64,000 nt of DNA from Sphingomonas sp. UNC305MFCol5.2. GTDB lineage: Bacteria > Pseudomonadota > Alphaproteobacteria > Sphingomonadales > Sphingomonadaceae. The translations under genes and the position numbers were made by a program. The DNA lies in NCBI RefSeq assembly GCF_000712135.1, contig NZ_JOOE01000001.1:496001-560000 (forward strand), given 5' to 3'. The notes below the pieces were generated by a model, which was not told the DNA's origin, did not search any database, and saw nothing but the letters and a program-made list of their open reading frames with translations. This document shows positions 4,791 to 47,521 of the stretch, one piece after another. Within the stretch, counting starts at the first letter, position 1. Each line of letters begins with the position of its first letter.

Positions 4791-6208
4791 CGCACCCCGC
4801 GCCAGCGGAAGGTCACCGCCGCATTGGACGGCAGCGGATAAGCGAAATGCCCGCCATCGGTCTGGACGGTCACTGTCTCAGCCTGCGCGCCGGCATTGAA
4901 GGCGAGCAGCACCCGCGTGCCGTCGGGATTGCGGAAGGCGACCGTCTCGACGCCGCCCGGCCTCGTGTCCGACGCGATGCGGTGCGCTCCGCGCGCCACG
5001 AAGCGGCTGGCATGGCCGAACGCGTAATATTCGACGTTACGGGTGACCGCGCCCGTCTTGCTGTCGATCGTCACCACGCCGCGGCAATTGTCGCAGCCGC
5101 CGAGATGCGGCCCGTATTTCTCATCGAGCGCGAGGTTCCACATCAGCACGCCGCGCGCCCAGTGACGCGGCGCGCCGATCACGAGGTTGCGCATCGTCCA
5201 TGCCCAGCTGTCGGGCCAGGCCTTGGACCATTCGCCGCCCGAGCATTCGGTGAAGAACACGTCCTTGTCGGGATGCTTGCCGCGCACCACGCTCTGCGCC
5301 GACACGTCACCCTTGTAGCAATGCCATGCCACCCCGGCCACGTAACGCGAGGCGGCGGGATCGGCGAGCACGCCTAGCGGCTGTTCGGGCAGGTCCCAGT
5401 TGTGATCCCAGTCGAGGATGCGCGTCGGCAGCCCCGAGCGCTCCAGCTCGGGGCCGAGCAGCGCGATCGCGCGGGCCCGCTGGACCGGGCTCAGCCGCAT
5501 GCCGGGATAGTTTTCCGGCTCGAAATCGGGCTCGTTCTGGATGCTCAGATAATCGACCGGGCCGATCTCCCTGGTGAAATCCTGCACGGTGCGGCGCAGA
5601 TAGGCGGCAAAGGGCTGGTAAGCGTCGTCGCGGAGCGTCCCCTTGATTAGCGAGTCCGTCGTCTTCATCCAGCCCGGCGCGCTCCACGGCGAGACCATCA
5701 CCGCGAGCCTGGGATTGACCGCACGCGCAGCGCGGACGGTGGGCAGCACCTCGGCCCGCGCCGGCGCGATCGAGAAATGCGTGAGTTCGGGATCGCGCTC
5801 GCCCTTGGGCCGATCGTCATAGCTGTAATGGCTGCGCGAGAAGTCCGATGCGCCGATCGTCACGCGCGTGAAGGAGAAGCCGATCCCCTGCGGCCCGAAC
5901 AGGTCGGCGAGCAGCGCGTCGCGCTGCTCGCGGGTCATCCTGCGCTGGATCAGCCAGGCCGAGGCATCGCTGATGGCCGCGCCATACCCCACCATCTCCT
6001 GGAAGCGCTGCGCCGGATCGACGGTGATCGCCCTCGCCGCCGCGCCCGGCTGCAACGCGATCGGCGCCTGCCGCGCAAGCAGCGCCGACTGGTCGGGCAG
6101 CGTCAGCCAGACCTCGACCGAAGGCGCCGCGCCAATGCCCCCGGCGGGCCGCTCGCCCTGCGCGCAGCCGGCCAGCGCGAGCGCGGCAAATCCGATCAGG
6201 ACACGCAT
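4787..6208 (-). CDS. GH30-family glycoside hydrolase, lipoprotein
   Basis: 473 residues. I start it at 6208 because GGAGAGAGA lies just before this ATG; an ATG at 6223 without a ribosome site would add five residues. The leader ends in a lipobox (LAGC, Cys15), so the enzyme is probably membrane-anchored in the periplasm. The domain is a GH30 beta-barrel: acid/base Glu226 in SIQNEPDF and nucleophile Glu321 in FFTECSGGEW, with WSAPGWMK at about 175-182 typical of the glucosylceramidase-like subfamily. Family activities include beta-glucosidase, beta-1,6-glucanase and xylanase. It is followed by the MFS gene with an ATGA overlap and preceded by the DUF6445 gene 11 bases upstream, so all three are one operon. 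Confidence 0.85.
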   Translation of the reverse strand: MRVLIGFAALALAGCAQGERPAGGIGAAPSVEVWLTLPDQSALLARQAPIALQPGAAARAITVDPAQRFQEMVGYGAAISDASAWLIQRRMTREQRDALLADLFGPQGIGFSFTRVTIGASDFSRSHYSYDDRPKGERDPELTHFSIAPARAEVLPTVRAARAVNPRLAVMVSPWSAPGWMKTTDSLIKGTLRDDAYQPFAAYLRRTVQDFTREIGPVDYLSIQNEPDFEPENYPGMRLSPVQRARAIALLGPELERSGLPTRILDWDHNWDLPEQPLGVLADPAASRYVAGVAWHCYKGDVSAQSVVRGKHPDKDVFFTECSGGEWSKAWPDSWAWTMRNLVIGAPRHWARGVLMWNLALDEKYGPHLGGCDNCRGVVTIDSKTGAVTRNVEYYAFGHASRFVARGAHRIASDTRPGGVETVAFRNPDGTRVLLAFNAGAQAETVTVQTDGGHFAYPLPSNAAVTFRWRGVR

Positions 6209-41492: not shown

Positions 41493-41612
41493 GCTCCGGT
41501 CGGGGCTCGCGCATGATGCGCGGCCCCTCCGACCGCGAACGGCGCTCGGAGATATCGAGGGCGAGACGCGATTCAGGCACCACGGCGCGAGGCTTGCGCC
41601 GAACGGCAAGGG

Positions 41613-42509
41613 CTAGCGTGATGCCGTACCGGTGTCTGCCGCGGAGGATCGGATAGCCTCGGCCGCTTGCCCGATCAGGTCCCGACGGAGCATCTGGTGG
41701 CGAATGCGTCGTGCGACCTGAGGCAGGAATCTGGCGTGACGCTCGCCATGCATCAGCCCGGTTGCGTCGTCGGTGAATTGCGCCAGGCTGCCACCTTTTC
41801 TCGCGAACACGGCACGATTGTCTCCGCATTCGGTCTGAACGACCACGACCTCGTCGCCGAAGCTTCTCCGGATCCGGCTCTTGCAGAGCCGATGCTTCTC
41901 CCAGAGGTTTACTACAAAAATGCCGCCCGGTGCGAGATGCCGGTAGCAATCATCATAGAAGTCCTGGGAGCACAGCTCGGGCGGCTGGCCGTCCATATCG
42001 AACCCGTCGACAAGCAGCACGTCGGCCTGTCGCCTGCTCTGCCGGACATAATCGGCGCCATCACCCCAGAGTATCCTGAAGCGGCCGCAATCTTCGGGGA
42101 TCAGAAAACGGCCCCGGAGTGCAATGACGTCCCGATCGATCTCAACGGCGGTTACGACGCTCGAGGGCACCTTGTAGTAGCAGTATTTCGCCAGCGAGCC
42201 GCCTCCGAGCCCGATCATGTCGATGGTCGCGGGCCTGGGGTTGAACAGCAGGAACCCCATCATGACTCTCGTATAGTCCAGAGCCAGGTCGAGCGGATTG
42301 CTGATGCTCATCTCGCTCTGGATGGTGCGATGATCGAAATGAAGTGCCCGGGTATCGCCAAACTCGGACAGATATGGCGCTCCACGCTTCGGAGTCAGCT
42401 GAAGACCGGATGCGAAGCCGCAGGCGTGCAGCACCTCGCTGTCGGCGACACTCAGCGCATCGCCGTCAAACCACGAACCCGGCCAGAGCCCCGCGTAGCC
42501 GTCGGTCAT
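41613..42509 (-). CDS. Spermidine-synthase-like SAM-dependent methyltransferase
   Basis: 298 residues. SAM-binding core: MIGLGGGSLAKYCY at about 92-105, then VTAVEIDRDVIALR with the acidic residue after beta-2, and ADVLLVDGFD. The YCYYKVPS and PNPLDLALDYTR-type context (SNPLDLALDYTRVMMG) match the bacterial spermidine-synthase-like group without a polyamine-binding role proven. Its start overlaps the preceding small gene by four bases, and that gene overlaps the XRE regulator, so it is the third gene of an XRE-led operon. Substrate unknown. Confidence 0.8.
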   Translation of the reverse strand: MTDGYAGLWPGSWFDGDALSVADSEVLHACGFASGLQLTPKRGAPYLSEFGDTRALHFDHRTIQSEMSISNPLDLALDYTRVMMGFLLFNPRPATIDMIGLGGGSLAKYCYYKVPSSVVTAVEIDRDVIALRGRFLIPEDCGRFRILWGDGADYVRQSRRQADVLLVDGFDMDGQPPELCSQDFYDDCYRHLAPGGIFVVNLWEKHRLCKSRIRRSFGDEVVVVQTECGDNRAVFARKGGSLAQFTDDATGLMHGERHARFLPQVARRIRHQMLRRDLIGQAAEAIRSSAADTGTASR

Positions 42510-42787
42510 CGGGATAGTTTCCCGGTTTCCTCGATAGCGGGACAAGTCTGCATGCCGAGAGCAAGATCAGCAGATCGCACCCGCGCAAGTGCCACCCGCC
42601 GCACGTGCGCGGCCACATCCGTTTCAGCCAGGGTCGGCCAGCGATCAGCGACCGACAGCAACCGGATGCCGGCCGCGACCGTCAGAGCTGCGGTGACACG
42701 GACTCCGGACCGGGGCCTGTCACGGGTTTCGCGAAGAACCGAAAGCGGGCCGGGCGTGCTTTCGAACAGCAACGTCCTAGCCGGCAT
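42506..42787 (-). CDS. Small hypothetical protein between XRE gene and methyltransferase
   Basis: 93 residues, Arg/Ala/Leu-rich, no recognised domain; one weak hydrophobic stretch (VRVTAALTVAAGIRLLSVA). Support for it being real is its position: it starts 11 bases inside the XRE gene and its stop overlaps the methyltransferase start by four bases, so it bridges two real genes without a gap. Confidence 0.55.
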   Translation of the reverse strand: MPARTLLFESTPGPLSVLRETRDRPRSGVRVTAALTVAAGIRLLSVADRWPTLAETDVAAHVRRVALARVRSADLALGMQTCPAIEETGKLSR

Positions 42788-43103
42788 GGCTCGCCGTCTT
42801 CGGCACGACACCCTCGCGGCCGGCGCGTCCGCCGGGCCGTTCACCGGATCGGGACGCCGCCTCGCGCAGACGCACCCCCCGACCGCTTCCGGCAGAGGGA
42901 GCGTTTTCGCCGATCAACTCGATCCCCGCTTCCTCCAGGGCCTCGACGACCTTCATCAACGTATCGATGATCCCGCGCACCTGCCCGCCTGATGCCTCCA
43001 TGCGCTGGATCGTCGGCAGCGACAGCCCCGCCAACTCGGCGAGCCCCTTCTGATCGAGGCCGAGCATCGCTCTGGCCGCTCGCATCTGTGCAGAGGTGAT
43101 CAT
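42777..43103 (-). CDS. XRE-family regulator (copy 1)
   Basis: 108 residues. Helix-turn-helix at about 7-45: RAARAMLGLDQKGLAELAGL followed by SLPTIQRMEA, a standard Cro/CI type domain with conserved Gln/Ala/Ser/Ile positions. The tail is Gly/Arg-rich. Heads a three-gene operon with a small protein and a methyltransferase. Two dyads lie 29 and 55 bases before its start and presumably bind it (autoregulation). A gene with the same length, tail and promoter layout is at 46245. Confidence 0.8.
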   Translation of the reverse strand: MITSAQMRAARAMLGLDQKGLAELAGLSLPTIQRMEASGGQVRGIIDTLMKVVEALEEAGIELIGENAPSAGSGRGVRLREAASRSGERPGGRAGREGVVPKTASHAG

Positions 43104-43131
43104 TCTGGCGGCGCTCCCGGACGCAATGAAG

Positions 43132-43173
43132 TGATATATGACGCATCAATATAGCTATTTATACCACGATAAA
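43132..43173. promoter_or_regulatory. Two-dyad element before XRE copy 1
   Basis: Dyad A at 43132-43148 (TGAT-N9-ATCA) and dyad B TTTATACCACGATAAA at 43158-43173. Dyad starts are 26 bases apart and dyad A is 29 bases from the XRE start. Identical spacing recurs before XRE copy 2. Dyad B contains a minus-strand TATAAA that could be the -10. Confidence 0.65.
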
Positions 43174-43212
43174 GATGTTTCGCACAGCACTCCTGCCACA
43201 AATGGCGCCGCC

Positions 43213-43404
43213 TCAGCGGCTCGAGCGCTGCTCGGACAGCAGAGCCTTGTCATACATTTCTTGCCAGGCGGTCGCGGCTCGCAACGCGCGCTCCCTGACG
43301 CGCGGCAGCGAAGCTGCGCTCGCCTCTTCGAGGCATGCCCTGCTCCGGTTCAGATACAGTTCGCTGTTGCGGAGGGTCGGTTTCAAATCGATTCGTCGTG
43401 ACAC
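43213..43404 (-). CDS. Small helical hypothetical protein
   Basis: 63 residues from a GTG (GAAGGTGCC upstream). Charged and helical: SELYLNRSRACLEEASAASL then RVRERALRAATAWQEMYDKA. This ERALR-x-AATAW-type helix pair is a pattern I associate with small conserved sphingomonad proteins of unknown function. Lies upstream of XRE copy 1 on the same strand, separated by the two-dyad element. Confidence 0.55.
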   Translation of the reverse strand: MSRRIDLKPTLRNSELYLNRSRACLEEASAASLPRVRERALRAATAWQEMYDKALLSEQRSSR

Positions 43405-43697
43405 GTTCAGGCACCTTCAAAGGCCAGGATTGGAAGCTCGGGCACAAGCGGTCGGATGTCGCCCGACCGGGAATGCTGATGTGGTTGGTGACGGCCGCGA
43501 CAAGGTTCGCACGCCAGTATAGTCACCAGCGCAGTCCGGCCCCGGCGGCGACCGTGCCCCAGCCAGCGGCAACACCGGCGAACAAGCGCGTGCCAGGCCG
43601 CGATGACTTGCCATTCGCATGGCCGGCCGCGCTCCAGCGTCCCCGGCCGGCAAGAAATCACGCGCCGCTTCGCGGAAATCCTCGTCCATATGTGCTC
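43405..43697. other. Gap with one doubtful small frame
   Basis: A minus-strand frame at 43417-43689 (begins MDEDFREAARDFLPAGDAGA) starts eight bases after the next upstream gene, but its later part is low-complexity Pro/Arg and looks unlike a protein. Otherwise nothing supported. Confidence 0.3.
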
Positions 43698-43976
43698 CTA
43701 TCCCGGGCTACGCAGGTCGGTGCCAAGGATCGCGCCCATCGCCACTCTCCGGTACTTCGAAGCTCGCCGGAAGCGCTCCGCTGCGCTTCGACGCCATTCG
43801 CAGGCCGCCCCGTCCCGATAACGGATATAGCCGACGTCCCGTCCCTCGAGGCGCGTCCTCGCGACGGCGTCCCGGCACGGCTTCTCGCTCCAGATCGGTC
43901 CCTCGACCGAGAAGGTCCGGGCTTCGCGGTCGAATATGACGACCAGGAAACCGCGCCGCGACGGCCGGCCGCTCAT
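43698..43976 (-). CDS. Small basic hypothetical protein
   Basis: 92 residues, with a beta-strand-like start (RRGFLVVIFDREARTFSVEG) and repeated Arg in the second half (GRDVGYIRYRDG, RFRRASKYRR). No family recognised. The ATG lacks a strong ribosome site. Codon usage and the lack of stops over 92 codons support it moderately. Confidence 0.45.
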   Translation of the reverse strand: MSGRPSRRGFLVVIFDREARTFSVEGPIWSEKPCRDAVARTRLEGRDVGYIRYRDGAACEWRRSAAERFRRASKYRRVAMGAILGTDLRSPG

Positions 43977-44136
43977 CGCGCGGCACCGCGCCGGCGCGCT
44001 TCGCGGGCGCCGTCAAAGCCGCGCCCGGCGCGCCGCACGATTTTCGGACAGCGGCCTGCTTCGCAGCCCGCCTCGCGCCGCGCTTTGGCGTCGCAGCCGG
44101 AGCCCGGCCAGGTCGAACCGCAGACCCGGGCCGCAG

Positions 44137-44589
44137 TCATCTGCGGTCACTCCCGGCCGTGTCCGCAGCCGGGGAGGCAGACAGATCGCAGACGTCGTCA
44201 GCGTAGGTGCTCCGGGAGTTAGCGACTGGCCACGCACCCAGGAACGCGGCCTCGATGTCGTCGCTGCTGACCGGTTTTGCGAGGCAGCCACAGGCGCCGA
44301 GCCTGATCGCCTCGGCTGCGTTTGCCGGATTGGCAAAGCCCGACACCATGAGGATGCGCGTCGCCGCATTGGCTCTGCGCAGTGCCTCGATGCAAGGCAG
44401 TCCGGAAGCCGGGTTGAGATTGAGGTCAACGATGGCGTAGCGGAACGCGTCTTCGTCCAGGAGCTTCGCGACCGCGCCCGGATCGGCTGCGATCCTGACC
44501 CGATATCCCCGCCGTTCCAGCGAGCGCGCCAGCACATTCGCATATGGCGCGTCATCCTCGACAATGATGAGCGAGCGATCGTCACGCAT
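44137..44589 (-). CDS. RegA/ActR-like receiver lacking the DNA-binding domain
   Basis: 150 residues. Receiver resembling RegA/ActR (redox response regulators): IIVEDDAPYANVLARSLERR, phospho-acceptor D55 (YAIVDLNLNPASGLPC), ILMVSGFANPANAAEAIRLG and LAKPVSSDDIEAAFLG. RegA proteins continue into a FIS-like helix-turn-helix; here only about 30 non-helical residues follow, so the output domain is missing. It overlaps the SulP gene by eight bases and may modulate that transporter or act as a phosphate sink. Confidence 0.8.
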   Translation of the reverse strand: MRDDRSLIIVEDDAPYANVLARSLERRGYRVRIAADPGAVAKLLDEDAFRYAIVDLNLNPASGLPCIEALRRANAATRILMVSGFANPANAAEAIRLGACGCLAKPVSSDDIEAAFLGAWPVANSRSTYADDVCDLSASPAADTAGSDRR

Positions 44590-46255
44590 CTCGCGTGTCC
44601 CCGCCGACGGCGATCTGCGCGAGCTGCAGCGCGCCGGCGAAGTCGTCCGCATAACGGACCCGGCCATTGCCGTTGCCCAGATGCACACGCCGAAGCATCT
44701 CCTGCGGCTGCGGCTGCACACCCGACAGGATCACATCGATGCCTGCCCGCCGCGCTTCGTCAACAAGACCTTCGAGCGCGGTCGCCCCGGACGCATCGAT
44801 CATGGGCACCAGGCGCATCCTGAGGATGATCGCACGGGGTTGCTGCCCCATCGCGCGGAAGGTGTCCATCAGTCCACCGACCACGCCAAAGAAGAACGGC
44901 CCGCTCATCCGGAACACCTCGACGCCCGGGGGGATCGCGTCACGTTGGTGCAGGTCCTCGTCCTCCCCGTCAAAGCCGGCGCCGATCTCCACGGTCGAGC
45001 TCATCCGCGCCATGAAGATCAGCGAAGCGAGCGTGACCCCCACGCCGATCGCCACGGTGAGATCGACAAGTATCGTCAGGGCGAATGTCAGCAGGAGAAC
45101 GATGCGGTCGCCGTTCGGCATCCGCAGATAGCCGAGGAAGTGCCGGCGTTCGCTCATGCCCCAGGCAACCATGAACAGGATGGCGGCAAGGGCCGCCATC
45201 GGCACGAACGCCATCAGCTTCGAGCCGAAGAGTATGAACAGGAGGAGGAACAGTGCATGCGACACACCCGCGACCGGTGAGCGACCGCCCGCCTTGATGT
45301 TGGTCGCGGTGCGCGCAATCGCCCCCGTCGCCGGAAGTCCACCAAAAAGGGCCGAGGCGAAGTTCGCCACCCCTTGCCCGACCATTTCCTGATTGGAGCG
45401 ATGCCGAAAGCCGGTCATCCCGTCCGCAACGACAGCCGACAGCAATGACTCGATGCCCGCGAGGAACGCGATCGTGAAGGCAGCGGGCAGAACCTGCTGA
45501 ACCTTCTCGACCGAGAAGGACGGAAAGTGCGGCAGGGGCATGCCCGTCGCCATGTTCGGGAAACGCGACCCGATCGTGTCGACCGGAAGCGAGAGCGCAG
45601 CCACGACGATCGAGGTAAGGACCACCGCGACCAGAAAGCCTGGTATGCGCGGCGCCGTTCTGCGCAGAATGATGATCGTCGCAAGCGCGGCGGCTCCGAC
45701 GGCGATGGCGACCGGATTCAGACTCCCGATCGCATGGAGATAGGCAGCCCATTTCGGCAGGAAGTCCGCTGGCACGGCGCTCATTCGAAGGCCGAGAAAG
45801 TCCTTCACCTGGCTCGAAGCGATGATCACTGCGATCCCGGCGGTGAACCCCGTCACCACGGGATGGGGTATGTACTTTACGAGACGGCCCAGCCGCAAAT
45901 ATCCGGCGATCGTCAGGATAAGGCCCGCGAGCAATGTCGCAAGTACCAGTCCGTCATAACCATGCTGTGCGATCACGGTGAAAACGATGACGACGAAGGC
46001 GCCGGTCGGCCCGCCGATCTGTACGCGGGAGCCGCCCAGCGCCGAAATGAGCAGGCCGGCCACGACCGCGGTAATCAAACCTTTGTCGGGCGTAGCGCCG
46101 CTCGCGATCCCCAGTGCCATCGACAGCGGCAGGGCGACGATCGCGACGGTAAGGCCCGCGACAATATCGGCCCTCAGCCGGCGCCCGTCATAACCCTGGC
46201 GAAGAACCGAGAACAGCTTTGGCGTGAACTCGATCGGGAAAACCCTAGGCAGCAT
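44582..46255 (-). CDS. SulP-family anion transporter with STAS domain
   Basis: 557 residues. About 12 membrane segments with the SulP signatures LTVAIVALPLSMALGIASG and GGPTGAFVVIVFTVIAQHG and LPATGAIARTATNIKAGGRS. A C-terminal STAS domain follows (about 440-545; AIILRMRLVPMIDASGATAL). Family substrates are sulfate, bicarbonate, chloride or dicarboxylates; none can be chosen. The start lies 11 bases inside the XRE copy 2 frame and the stop 8 bases inside the receiver gene, giving a coupled XRE-sulP-receiver operon. Two-dyad element upstream of the XRE gene probably controls it. Confidence 0.88.
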   Translation of the reverse strand: MLPRVFPIEFTPKLFSVLRQGYDGRRLRADIVAGLTVAIVALPLSMALGIASGATPDKGLITAVVAGLLISALGGSRVQIGGPTGAFVVIVFTVIAQHGYDGLVLATLLAGLILTIAGYLRLGRLVKYIPHPVVTGFTAGIAVIIASSQVKDFLGLRMSAVPADFLPKWAAYLHAIGSLNPVAIAVGAAALATIIILRRTAPRIPGFLVAVVLTSIVVAALSLPVDTIGSRFPNMATGMPLPHFPSFSVEKVQQVLPAAFTIAFLAGIESLLSAVVADGMTGFRHRSNQEMVGQGVANFASALFGGLPATGAIARTATNIKAGGRSPVAGVSHALFLLLFILFGSKLMAFVPMAALAAILFMVAWGMSERRHFLGYLRMPNGDRIVLLLTFALTILVDLTVAIGVGVTLASLIFMARMSSTVEIGAGFDGEDEDLHQRDAIPPGVEVFRMSGPFFFGVVGGLMDTFRAMGQQPRAIILRMRLVPMIDASGATALEGLVDEARRAGIDVILSGVQPQPQEMLRRVHLGNGNGRVRYADDFAGALQLAQIAVGGDTRDA

Positions 46256-46571
46256 GGTTTGCACATTCCGGCCCGACACCATCCCGCGCGACACGCCCGT
46301 TGCGCCGTTCCTCGGGCCGGGAGGTTGCCACGCGCAGCCGCACCCTGTGTGCGGCCCCCGACGTGGAAGCAGGCGCTCCAATCAAATCAATCCAGGCCTC
46401 CCCCGGCGCTTCAACCGGTTTGAGCAGCATGCCGATCATCCCGCACACCCGTCTGCCAAAGGCCTCCGGGCGCGAGATCGTCGACAGCGACGCCCCCTCC
46501 GGCGCGGCAAGCCCCATTTTTCCGGGGCCCTGTATCGCCCGCGCGGGCGGCACTTTCGCAGAGGTGATCAC
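46245..46571 (-). CDS. XRE-like protein (copy 2), diverged, DNA-binding region probably impaired
   Basis: 108 residues from GTG 46571 (a GTG at 46577 would add two). It aligns without gaps to XRE copy 1 over all 108 residues, with about half identical (ITSA, ARA, GLA, SL-TI-R-EA, VEA, IxLIG, VRLR, tail HA). Copy 2 has prolines where copy 1 has none at positions 8, 9, 16, 24, 35, 52 and 56, mostly in the predicted helices, so it may no longer bind DNA. Yet length, frame and the 11-base overlap into the next gene (sulP) are kept exactly. Either a specialised protein or a coupling leader peptide. Confidence 0.6.
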   Translation of the reverse strand: MITSAKVPPARAIQGPGKMGLAAPEGASLSTISRPEAFGRRVCGMIGMLLKPVEAPGEAWIDLIGAPASTSGAAHRVRLRVATSRPEERRNGRVARDGVGPECANHAA

Positions 46572-46599
46572 TCCCACAAGGCTCTCCCCTGCTTTGTTA

Positions 46600-46641
46600 T
46601 GATGTTTTATACATCAACATACCGCTTTATACCATGATAAA
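46600..46641. promoter_or_regulatory. Two-dyad element before XRE copy 2
   Basis: Dyad A TGATGTTTTATACATCA (46600-46616) and dyad B TTTATACCATGATAAA (46626-46641), at the same 29 and 26 base spacings as before copy 1. Dyad B differs from its counterpart at one base. It also lies upstream of the divergent gene at 46713. Confidence 0.65.
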
Positions 46642-46712
46642 GATGTGTGATACAACAGTTCTGACAGGAGAGCCATTTGTGCGCTCCCCGGTTTCCTTCG
46701 GGAGGTGTGGCG

Positions 46713-47030
46713 ATGGATAGCAAGGCATCTATAGCTCCCGGGCGCCGTCGGCAGGTCGAACGCCCTCGCCTTGGAATTGTCTGCGGGGAGCCTCGACAAG
46801 AGCAATCGGGCCATTGGCATCTTCACCCCCGGTCGCACCCGAAAGCGGATGGAAGCCGCAGGATTACGATCGACGCGCGATCGGAAAAGACGGCGTTCGT
46901 CGTCGATCTGTCCGCCGGTGAAGCCGCCGAATTGATGCTCGAGCTCGGCTACGCGCTCGAGCAGGCGGCCCGTGACGAGAAGGCGCACTGCGTTCCCCGC
47001 GTTCAGCCCGCGCCGGGAGGTCGCGCGTGA
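46713..47030 (+). CDS. Small hypothetical protein divergent from XRE copy 2
   Basis: 105 residues; CGGGAGGTGTGGCG before the ATG gives a good ribosome site. Basic N-terminal third, then a folded-looking core (SRRITIDARSEKTAFVVDLS followed by AGEAAELMLELGYALEQAAR) with a beta-strand and an amphipathic helix. No family recognised. Divergent from the XRE-sulP operon and may share its operator region. Confidence 0.5.
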   Translation: MDSKASIAPGRRRQVERPRLGIVCGEPRQEQSGHWHLHPRSHPKADGSRRITIDARSEKTAFVVDLSAGEAAELMLELGYALEQAARDEKAHCVPRVQPAPGGRA

Positions 47031-47153
47031 TGGCGTGCTTGATACCGTCCGAAATGCGCTCTCCGTTCGGCGCGGCGCGCACTCCAAAGGGTGCCGGTGC
47101 CTGAGGTCTTGACCCCTTTCGATCCGAAGCACGGTGATCGTCCGTCCCGGCGA

Positions 47154-47387
47154 ATGCGCGAAGACTCGCGCCCTGCATCGCCGGGCACCAAAAAGCCGAT
47201 CGAATCCGAGCGGAGCGCGCCGCGATCCGTCTGGGCGATTCTCGGACGCGGCATGCGCAACCGCTGCCCGGCCGGGACATTCAATGTTGAGCGGACCCAA
47301 CACGCGGCGATCGGCGGCGGGAGGAATGCTGACGCGCTGCCCGCCACACACGCGGCCCCGGCGAACGAGCAGGCACGCAAAGGATGA
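47154..47387 (+). CDS. Possible small hypothetical protein
   Basis: 77 residues from ATG 47154 (a GTG at 47091 is possible). Low-complexity Ala/Arg/Pro content and no domain. The only positive sign is that its stop overlaps the next start by ATGA, as the following pair also does. Weak. Confidence 0.3.
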   Translation: MREDSRPASPGTKKPIESERSAPRSVWAILGRGMRNRCPAGTFNVERTQHAAIGGGRNADALPATHAAPANEQARKG

Positions 47388-47521
47388 TCGCGGGCATCGT
47401 CTTGATCTCCACGCTTTTGTTGGGGCTGTTTTTTGCAGTGATCATCGCCGGCGGAAGAGCGCACGACAGAGCCAACGCCGAGACCGCACGCACGCGCGAC
47501 GAGAAGTCCCAGGGAAAATGA
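47384..47521 (+). CDS. 45-residue single-pass membrane protein
   Basis: Hydrophobic helix IVLISTLLLGLFFAVIIAGG followed by a charged cytoplasmic-type tail (HDRANAETARTRDEKSQGK). Overlaps both the frame before and the gene after by ATGA. No family known. Confidence 0.5.
   Translation: MIAGIVLISTLLLGLFFAVIIAGGRAHDRANAETARTRDEKSQGK

Follow-up and report, generated by a model that had tools for sequence, protein, structure and literature searches.

The closest described relatives of XRE1, the regulator considered here, are small XRE/HTH_3 proteins, among which controller protein C (4yba) of restriction-modification systems and the HigA antitoxin (6af3) are the nearest solved chains by sequence profile. 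Like them, XRE1 is a small HTH protein with a palindrome ahead of its own gene; unlike them, it is partnered with a transporter rather than a nuclease or toxin, and its binding is predicted. The transporter, SulP2, resembles the SulP/SLC26 transporters in having complete Sulfate_transp and STAS domains. A further parallel is duplication-degeneration-complementation, in which two copies of a gene undergo complementary losses. The present locus likewise holds two XRE-SulP copies with complementary losses, but these strike different whole genes of one operon, turning a cis unit into a presumed trans-regulated pair. Among the matches listed in open-literature searches, no description of an XRE-SulP unit was seen. 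Positions below are those of the window, a 64,000-nucleotide stretch of the Sphingomonas sp. UNC305MFCol5.2 genome, in which the following features were delineated.

41613-42509, minus strand: methyltransferase/aminopropyltransferase-like gene (MT); Spermine_synth match, PRK04457-like below cut-off
42506-42787, minus strand: 93-aa ORF beginning as a SulP stub (homologous part to about 42649, by DNA and protein match), remainder unrelated to SulP2
42649-43203, minus strand: copy 1 of the duplicated block (-100 to +454 relative to the XRE1 start), gapless match to copy 2
42777-43103, minus strand: XRE1, 108 aa, start ATG at 43103, functional-looking HTH repressor by HTH_3 match, near-invariant columns and codon-position changes
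43132-43148, minus strand: operator-like palindrome of copy 1, TGATGCGTCATATATCA, 2 of 12 half-site positions mismatched, assigned by the motif found upstream of XRE homologues
43158-43173, minus strand: second, farther dyad of copy 1, TTTATCGTGGTATAAA, with a -10-like TATAAA at 43158-43163
43213-43404, minus strand: orfW, 63 aa, upstream of XRE1; comes after SulP in four Sphingopyxis-like contigs
44137-44589, minus strand: receiver-domain protein; Response_reg match, ActR/PrrA-like far below cut-off
44582-46255, minus strand: SulP2, complete 557-aa transporter with STAS domain
46117-46671, minus strand: copy 2 of the duplicated block, gapless match to copy 1
46245-46571, minus strand: XRE2, start GTG at 46571, open but decayed repressor frame
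46600-46616, minus strand: operator-like perfect palindrome of copy 2, TGATGTATAAAACATCA, 0 mismatches to the motif
46626-46641, minus strand: second, farther dyad of copy 2, TTTATCATGGTATAAA, with TATAAA at 46626-46631
46713-47030, plus strand: orfD, small divergent gene upstream of copy 2

A tandem duplication that includes the start of SulP

The two copies align without a gap from -100 to +454 around the XRE start, with 355 of 555 nucleotides identical, and identity outside this block is about 25-32%. The initial annotation had proposed a duplicated regulatory block, which this gapless homology bears out; it had overlooked that in both copies the homology continues beyond the XRE stop and into the following gene, and also that XRE2 is decayed. 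Its description of the XRE frames as equally long, gapless and about half identical is accurate (108 residues each, 54/108 identical), as is the 11-base reach into the next gene, since both XRE stops lie 11 nt inside the frames starting at 42787 and 46255. Measured start to start, the 29- and 26-base spacings it reported are exact in both copies: 29 separates the start codon from the dyad at 43132/46600, and 26 separates this dyad from its partner at 43158/46626. They add no independent evidence, since nothing between -100 and +454 is gapped.

In the protein tree the XRE2 branch ran to the maximum length of 10, and placement was based on site patterns instead. With each of the 10 outgroups used, sites uniting XRE1 and XRE2 to the exclusion of G033 outnumbered those for either of the other groupings. 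A third XRE-SulP pair, intact, lies on contig C3 of the same genome. The two blocks are, as their alignment argues, tandem descendants of one XRE-SulP unit. XRE1 falls in a clade of XREs without an adjoining SulP in the protein tree (G033, BiD32), leaving scope for an older lineage of solo XREs. In Sphingobium indicum BiD32, no SulP remnant was seen by eye in the gap between XRE and MT, and orfD has a homologue divergent from the G033 XRE (58% over 55 aa, locus L050).

Directly downstream on the same strand, copy 2 has a complete SulP and copy 1 an N-terminal stub only. The start of the 93-aa ORF is a decayed SulP N-terminus in register with SulP2, in which 76 of 128 nucleotides are identical, against a maximum of 61 at about 127,000 other places. 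The pairwise protein match begins at residue 1 (E=6e-4). On the other hand, a 37-column HMM built from 54 distinct SulP N-terminal sequences, for which 1 of 2000 shuffles reached E=0.001, left the stub unreported at E<=5, an outcome that tells against the protein-level signal; the identification relies on the pairwise match and on the DNA alignment with its anchored register, not on the HMM. The tail of the ORF matched SulP2 no better than shuffles did. SulP2 itself covers near-full Pfam profiles (Sulfate_transp positions 1-379 of 380, STAS 7-93 of 106), which places it among the SulP transporters. Its nearest NCBIfam model is DauA, and because 506.2 bits falls short of the cut-off of 614, it is not assignable as this C4-dicarboxylate transporter; sulP (370 vs 380) and BicA (259 vs 880) are below their cut-offs as well.

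A conserved XRE-SulP unit and the origin of the neighbours

XRE homologues with more than 42% identity to XRE1 were collected as 105 rows in 102 loci; omission of L167, which has a broken frame with SulP downstream, and merging of three identical coding sequences left 101 distinct XREs, including the two copies of the window and the C3 copy. At most 16 candidates were scored per genome, and the loci named are the best 80 of at least 572, so that the following fractions are valid for close homologues. SulP is the next gene on the same strand for 77 of the 101, and the motif TGATGT-N5-ACATCA, allowing at most 2 of 12 mismatches, lies upstream of 91 (controls: 0/101 in coding regions, 1/101 in shuffled sequence). 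An XRE-SulP unit with this sharp, conserved and putatively operator-like motif is widespread in many Proteobacteria. The initial annotation had held that its reading would fall if no other genome carried the element; the element is present in other genomes, and that objection therefore fails.

The same annotation regarded the block as a cassette that had captured different cargo, that is, an XRE gene with its operators copied ahead of two unrelated operons. The MT gene is presently the third frame after XRE1, its ATG overlapping the stub stop (ATGA), and the genes that follow the two XREs do differ to that extent; Sphingopyxis-like contigs in which MT lies behind orfW with no XRE match ahead of MT also fit a capture. 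However, the copied block takes in the start of SulP, the usual XRE partner, and the small protein said to be new cargo begins as decayed SulP. Of the 101 other loci surveyed, 9 have an MT homologue near an XRE of the XRE1 type, and the order XRE-SulP-orfW-MT is found in four Sphingopyxis-like contigs. The duplication stands; the capture, which we regard as highly improbable, is rejected in view of the SulP stub behind XRE1. The copies are better read as having lost different genes than as having gained different ones, and MT is a long-standing neighbour that was not captured as cargo.

XRE1 is conserved and XRE2 has decayed

XRE1 passes the curated Pfam HTH_3 cut-off (24.8 bits vs 23) and keeps 35 of 36 near-invariant columns, whereas XRE2 has no HTH_3 match, no Pfam family at E<=1, and only 19 of the 36 columns, with conserved HTH residues among the losses. 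On the XRE1 branch, changes fall mainly at third codon positions (positions 1/2/3: 2/0/10 with the G033 outgroup, 5/0/11 and 5/0/12 with two others); on the XRE2 branch they number 19/21/19 with G033, or 59 of 252 sites, and 14/22/17 and 17/22/11 with the others. NG86 dN/dS was set aside, as its values mix the two branches. A type II toxin-antitoxin pair, with an antitoxin model and an adjoining toxin gene, was not found: couple_hipB scored 34.4 bits against a cut-off of 71.65, and the neighbours of XRE1 and XRE2 (SulP, SulP stub, MT-like gene) bear against such an assignment.

XRE2 might still function, as a regulator that has diverged towards a new DNA specificity, a dominant-negative form or a leader peptide, its frame being under selection. 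The gapless 108-codon open frame, the same 11-nt overlap with SulP2 and the parts of the C-terminal half retained in the alignment would suit this. Against it stand changes that are even by codon position with G033, the lack of third-position enrichment with the other two outgroups, and the lost HTH residues. The open frame, with zero stops and zero indels, was rejected as a sign of selection, because 20-38% of neutral simulations likewise kept the frame open and because gaps are absent from the leader and the stub as well. We consider a functional XRE2 improbable, and read it as undergoing neutral decay within a still open frame, its HTH signature lost and no protein constraint apparent.

Operator-like palindromes

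The gene-proximal dyads TGATGCGTCATATATCA and TGATGTATAAAACATCA are identical at 12 of 17 positions. The farther dyad, TTTATCRTGGTATAAA, which includes the -10-like TATAAA, differs at 1 of 16 positions between copies, so that the near-identity claimed for it earlier was correct. A 21-mer around it has no other occurrence in the 4.24-Mb genome with up to three mismatches, nor in the other loci examined with up to four. In both copies the operator-like palindrome sits 9 nt after TATAAA, a position at which it would cover the transcription start; a consensus search found no sigma-70-type promoter, and Rfam returned nothing at gathering scores over 41500-47500. A fourth genomic match to the palindrome, at C2:127983, lies away from every XRE match and was treated as chance.

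Between the copies, the promoter stretch shows no significant excess of likeness over the remainder of the block (P=0.62 over 38 nt, 0.13 over 21 nt, 0.73 over 27 nt), and the idea that the promoter is the more conserved part was rejected; selection on the copy 2 promoter is therefore not demonstrated. This result, together with the decay of XRE2, would agree with an escape of SulP2 from repression, copy 2 being constitutive or under other control, for example by the receiver protein. However, the copy 2 palindrome is perfect, and better than that of copy 1, despite the changes in the adjoining XRE2, and two intact repressors of the family are still in the genome. Such an escape is conceivable, though we think it rather unlikely.

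Proposed model

We consider it likely that tandem copies of an autoregulated XRE-SulP operon underwent reciprocal decay, and that XRE1 now regulates itself as well as, presumably, SulP2 in trans. The duplication, SulP stub, XRE2 decay and conserved operator motif on which this builds are demonstrated by the sequence; promoter, binding, sign of control, signal and substrate are predicted. Copy 1 has retained the repressor and lost the transporter save for the stub, and copy 2 has retained the transporter behind a repressor frame stripped of its HTH signature. Since the copies lost opposite genes, the surviving repressor probably controls the surviving transporter from a distance. XRE1 would bind TGATGT-N5-ACATCA as a dimer and repress its own operon, XRE1-stub-MT, whose frames are joined by the 11-nt and ATGA overlaps. 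Through the perfect palindrome of copy 2, it would also repress in trans the operon of SulP2 and the receiver-domain gene, which overlaps the end of SulP2 by 8 nt, until some signal releases the repression; the putative promoter of this operon lies about 3.5 kb away. The intact repressor on C3 might take part in this control. The two mismatches in the operator-like site of copy 1 count against the model.

More tentatively, and with the odds against it, the locus may represent duplication-degeneration-complementation of an operon at the whole-gene level, in which a repressor-transporter unit encoded in cis was converted into a pair regulated in trans. XRE2, as a dead frame, would then serve only as a translated leader coupling ribosomes into SulP2, its frame and overlap being kept and not its amino-acid sequence, and MT would have come under the surviving repressor by way of the SulP stub.

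Implications

In this one genome a repressor-transporter operon has apparently come apart through complementary losses of genes, both halves keeping operator-like sites, which makes the cis-to-trans regulatory step directly testable. The conserved operator-like motif may further offer a handle on what XRE-linked SulP transporters respond to.

Extent of the duplicated block

The positions given by the initial annotation hold two XRE frames of 108 codons each; both are on the minus strand, and they align without gaps, with 54 of 108 residues identical. Each of their stops falls 11 nt within the following frame, and the 29- and 26-base spacings hold exactly in both copies. The features concerned are as follows.

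42777–43103, minus strand: XRE1, the copy 1 repressor
46245–46571, minus strand: XRE2, the copy 2 repressor frame
42506–42787, minus strand: 93-aa ORF after XRE1, with a SulP-like start (the stub)
44582–46255, minus strand: SulP2, the copy 2 transporter
41613–42509, minus strand: MT, a methyltransferase/aminopropyltransferase-like gene
43213–43404, minus strand: orfW, a 63-aa ORF upstream of XRE1
43158–43173 and 46626–46641: the second, farther dyad of each copy

When aligned on their start codons, the copies match gaplessly from -100 to +454 (355 of 555 positions identical), while the flanks on both sides reach only 25–32% identity. Because this whole stretch matches, the two spacings are not separate coincidences. 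Homology runs 128 nt past the XRE stop with 76 of 128 positions identical, against 35.7 on average and 61 at most when the same 128 nt were compared with about 127,000 other places in the window on both strands. The duplication is real.

A single cargo

In copy 2, the 128-nt stretch is the beginning of a complete SulP transporter (Sulfate_transp and STAS), which is up to 72% identical to the SulP proteins of relatives; in copy 1, it is the beginning of the 93-aa "small protein". Residues 1–38 of the latter match the SulP2 N-terminus from residue 1 at 16 of 38 positions (E = 6e-4, two-sequence comparison), and the remainder resembles SulP2 no more than shuffles do. The stub was not reported at E ≤ 5 by a 37-column HMM of the N-terminal motif common to relatives' SulP (type TPKL.TVLREGY...A.AGLTVAIVALPL), so that it is identified by the anchored DNA match together with the pairwise protein alignment. 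Since the copied stretch includes the SulP start in both copies, there was one cargo rather than two, namely SulP, intact in copy 2 and a stub in copy 1. Of the proposed duplicated regulatory cassette with different captured cargo, the duplication therefore stands and the capture does not. For the receiver gene behind SulP2, no downstream match was found in other loci at E ≤ 1e-4.

Complementary decay of the two copies

Across 99 other XREs, 36 columns are shared by 95% or more; XRE1 retains 35 of them and XRE2 19, three of the XRE2 losses being changes to proline. XRE1 matches HTH_3 in Pfam, and no Pfam model matched XRE2 at E ≤ 1. With the XRE of the relative G033 as outgroup, changes at the three codon positions number 2/0/10 along the XRE1 branch and 19/21/19 along that of XRE2; with two further outgroups, they are 5/0/11 and 5/0/12 for XRE1, and 14/22/17 and 17/22/11 for XRE2. 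Judged from these sequences, constraint looks apparent on XRE1 and absent on XRE2. The open frame of XRE2, considered as a sign of function, is no evidence for it, since 20–38% of neutral simulations are likewise open and the leader and stub are equally gapless between copies. The operon is of an ordinary kind; its complementary decay, of the transporter in copy 1 and the repressor in copy 2, is unusually clear.

The ancestral unit and its operator-like palindrome

The same genome contains a third copy, on contig C3, whose XRE is 85 aa long and overlaps the SulP start. The distribution within the genus is patchy, as the XRE was found at E ≤ 1e-10 in 20 of 295 genomes searched, the window's own included, with at most 16 candidates scored per genome. 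Among named genomes, at least 572 relatives were detected; the best 80, which were retained, are mostly Alphaproteobacteria and, to a lesser extent, Gammaproteobacteria (for example Lysobacter, Luteimonas and Lamprocystis). These named loci, further relatives, the window's two copies and the C3 copy make up 101 distinct XRE coding sequences (broken row L167 excluded). With the named ones limited to that best 80, SulP follows on the same strand in 77 of the 101, and TGATGT-N5-ACATCA lies within 130 nt upstream, at no more than 2 of 12 mismatches, in 91 (coding-region control, 0/101; shuffled upstream sequence, 1/101). The palindrome is present in 74 of the 77 XREs with SulP and 17 of the 24 without. 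Like the window's copies, many sphingomonad XREs, at 102–110 aa, run into the beginning of SulP.

Timing of the duplication

Four-taxon site patterns grouping XRE1 with XRE2 against G033 outnumber either alternative with all 10 outgroups (8–18 sites, versus 6–12 and 1–5), the margin being just 8 to 7 with L154. Among the loci examined, a 21-mer around the second dyad occurs at ≤4 mismatches in the window only. Taken together, these sequence patterns suggest that the duplication most likely came after the split from G033. In the protein tree, the XRE2 branch ran to the upper limit of 10, leaving XRE2 unplaced; XRE1 forms a group (99/85) with its counterparts from G033 and Sphingobium indicum BiD32, and SulP adjoins neither of these two. 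This grouping fits a duplication after the G033 split, but could instead represent an older lineage of solo XREs. No tandem same-strand copies were found in the other genomes of the genus search (295 genomes, at most 16 candidates scored each); L074 and L088 have two XREs per locus in other arrangements. In L088, a decayed-looking 94-aa XRE (minus strand from 9642; 24/45 conserved columns, longest branch class) shares its contig with an intact 88-aa XRE, possibly another repressor decay following duplication.

Neighbouring genes

The nearest model to the MT protein is PRK04457 polyamine aminopropyltransferase, with a score below cut-off. Apart from the window, 9 of the 101 loci carry MT homologues (E < 1e-10), with the order XRE-SulP-orfW-MT in L079, L085, L086 and L101; in L154, MT and XRE-SulP diverge from a gap of about 90 nt holding the operator motif. 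Within the window, the XRE1-stub copy stands between orfW and MT, and MT, through an ATGA overlap with the stub, has come to be third in the presumed XRE1 operon. Around MT in the four Sphingopyxis-like contigs (L079, L085, L086, L101), a search for operator-like sites gave none (best 5–6 of 12 mismatches). In L074 (S. indicum BiD32), two XREs without SulP face each other (2164–2499 and 4982–5311), one having an upstream palindrome and an MT homologue 86 nt behind it.

A small gene with a AAELMLELGYALEQAAR motif (46713–47030), without a family match, is divergent from XRE2 and may share the operator region; a homologue in L050 (7858–8289; 58% over 55 aa) is divergent from the G033 XRE. XRE homologues without SulP also precede NuoL/HyfB-like genes in L052 (1929–4900) and L144 (5302–7356), both with Proton_antipo_M and the former with NADHdh next, and, judged by eye, in L053, L119 and L128. 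One regulator family may serve SulP and a proton-translocating membrane complex alike.

Proposed control and significance

The palindrome is located 9 nt after TATAAA; a scan by consensus found no promoter. XRE1 dimers would bind it, covering the transcription start, and repress. In copy 2, where the palindrome is perfect and no functional repressor lies in cis, control in trans may come from XRE1, whose gene is about 3.5 kb away, or from the C3 repressor; the copy-to-copy comparison did not demonstrate selection on the copy 2 promoter. In each copy, the main palindrome is preceded at 41 bp by a weaker one with 3 mismatches (43173–43189 and 46641–46657), which may be chance; the window holds 11 matches at this level against 5.6 expected, and 2 of 100 shuffles reach 11.

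Among the matches listed in the part of the open literature covered, on SulP, sulfate permease or DauA with XRE or helix-turn-helix and on the half-site with SulP, no description of an XRE-SulP unit was apparent; likewise, the part covered on duplication-degeneration-complementation in bacterial operons held no evident case of this kind. The locus is a good test case for cis regulation turning trans.
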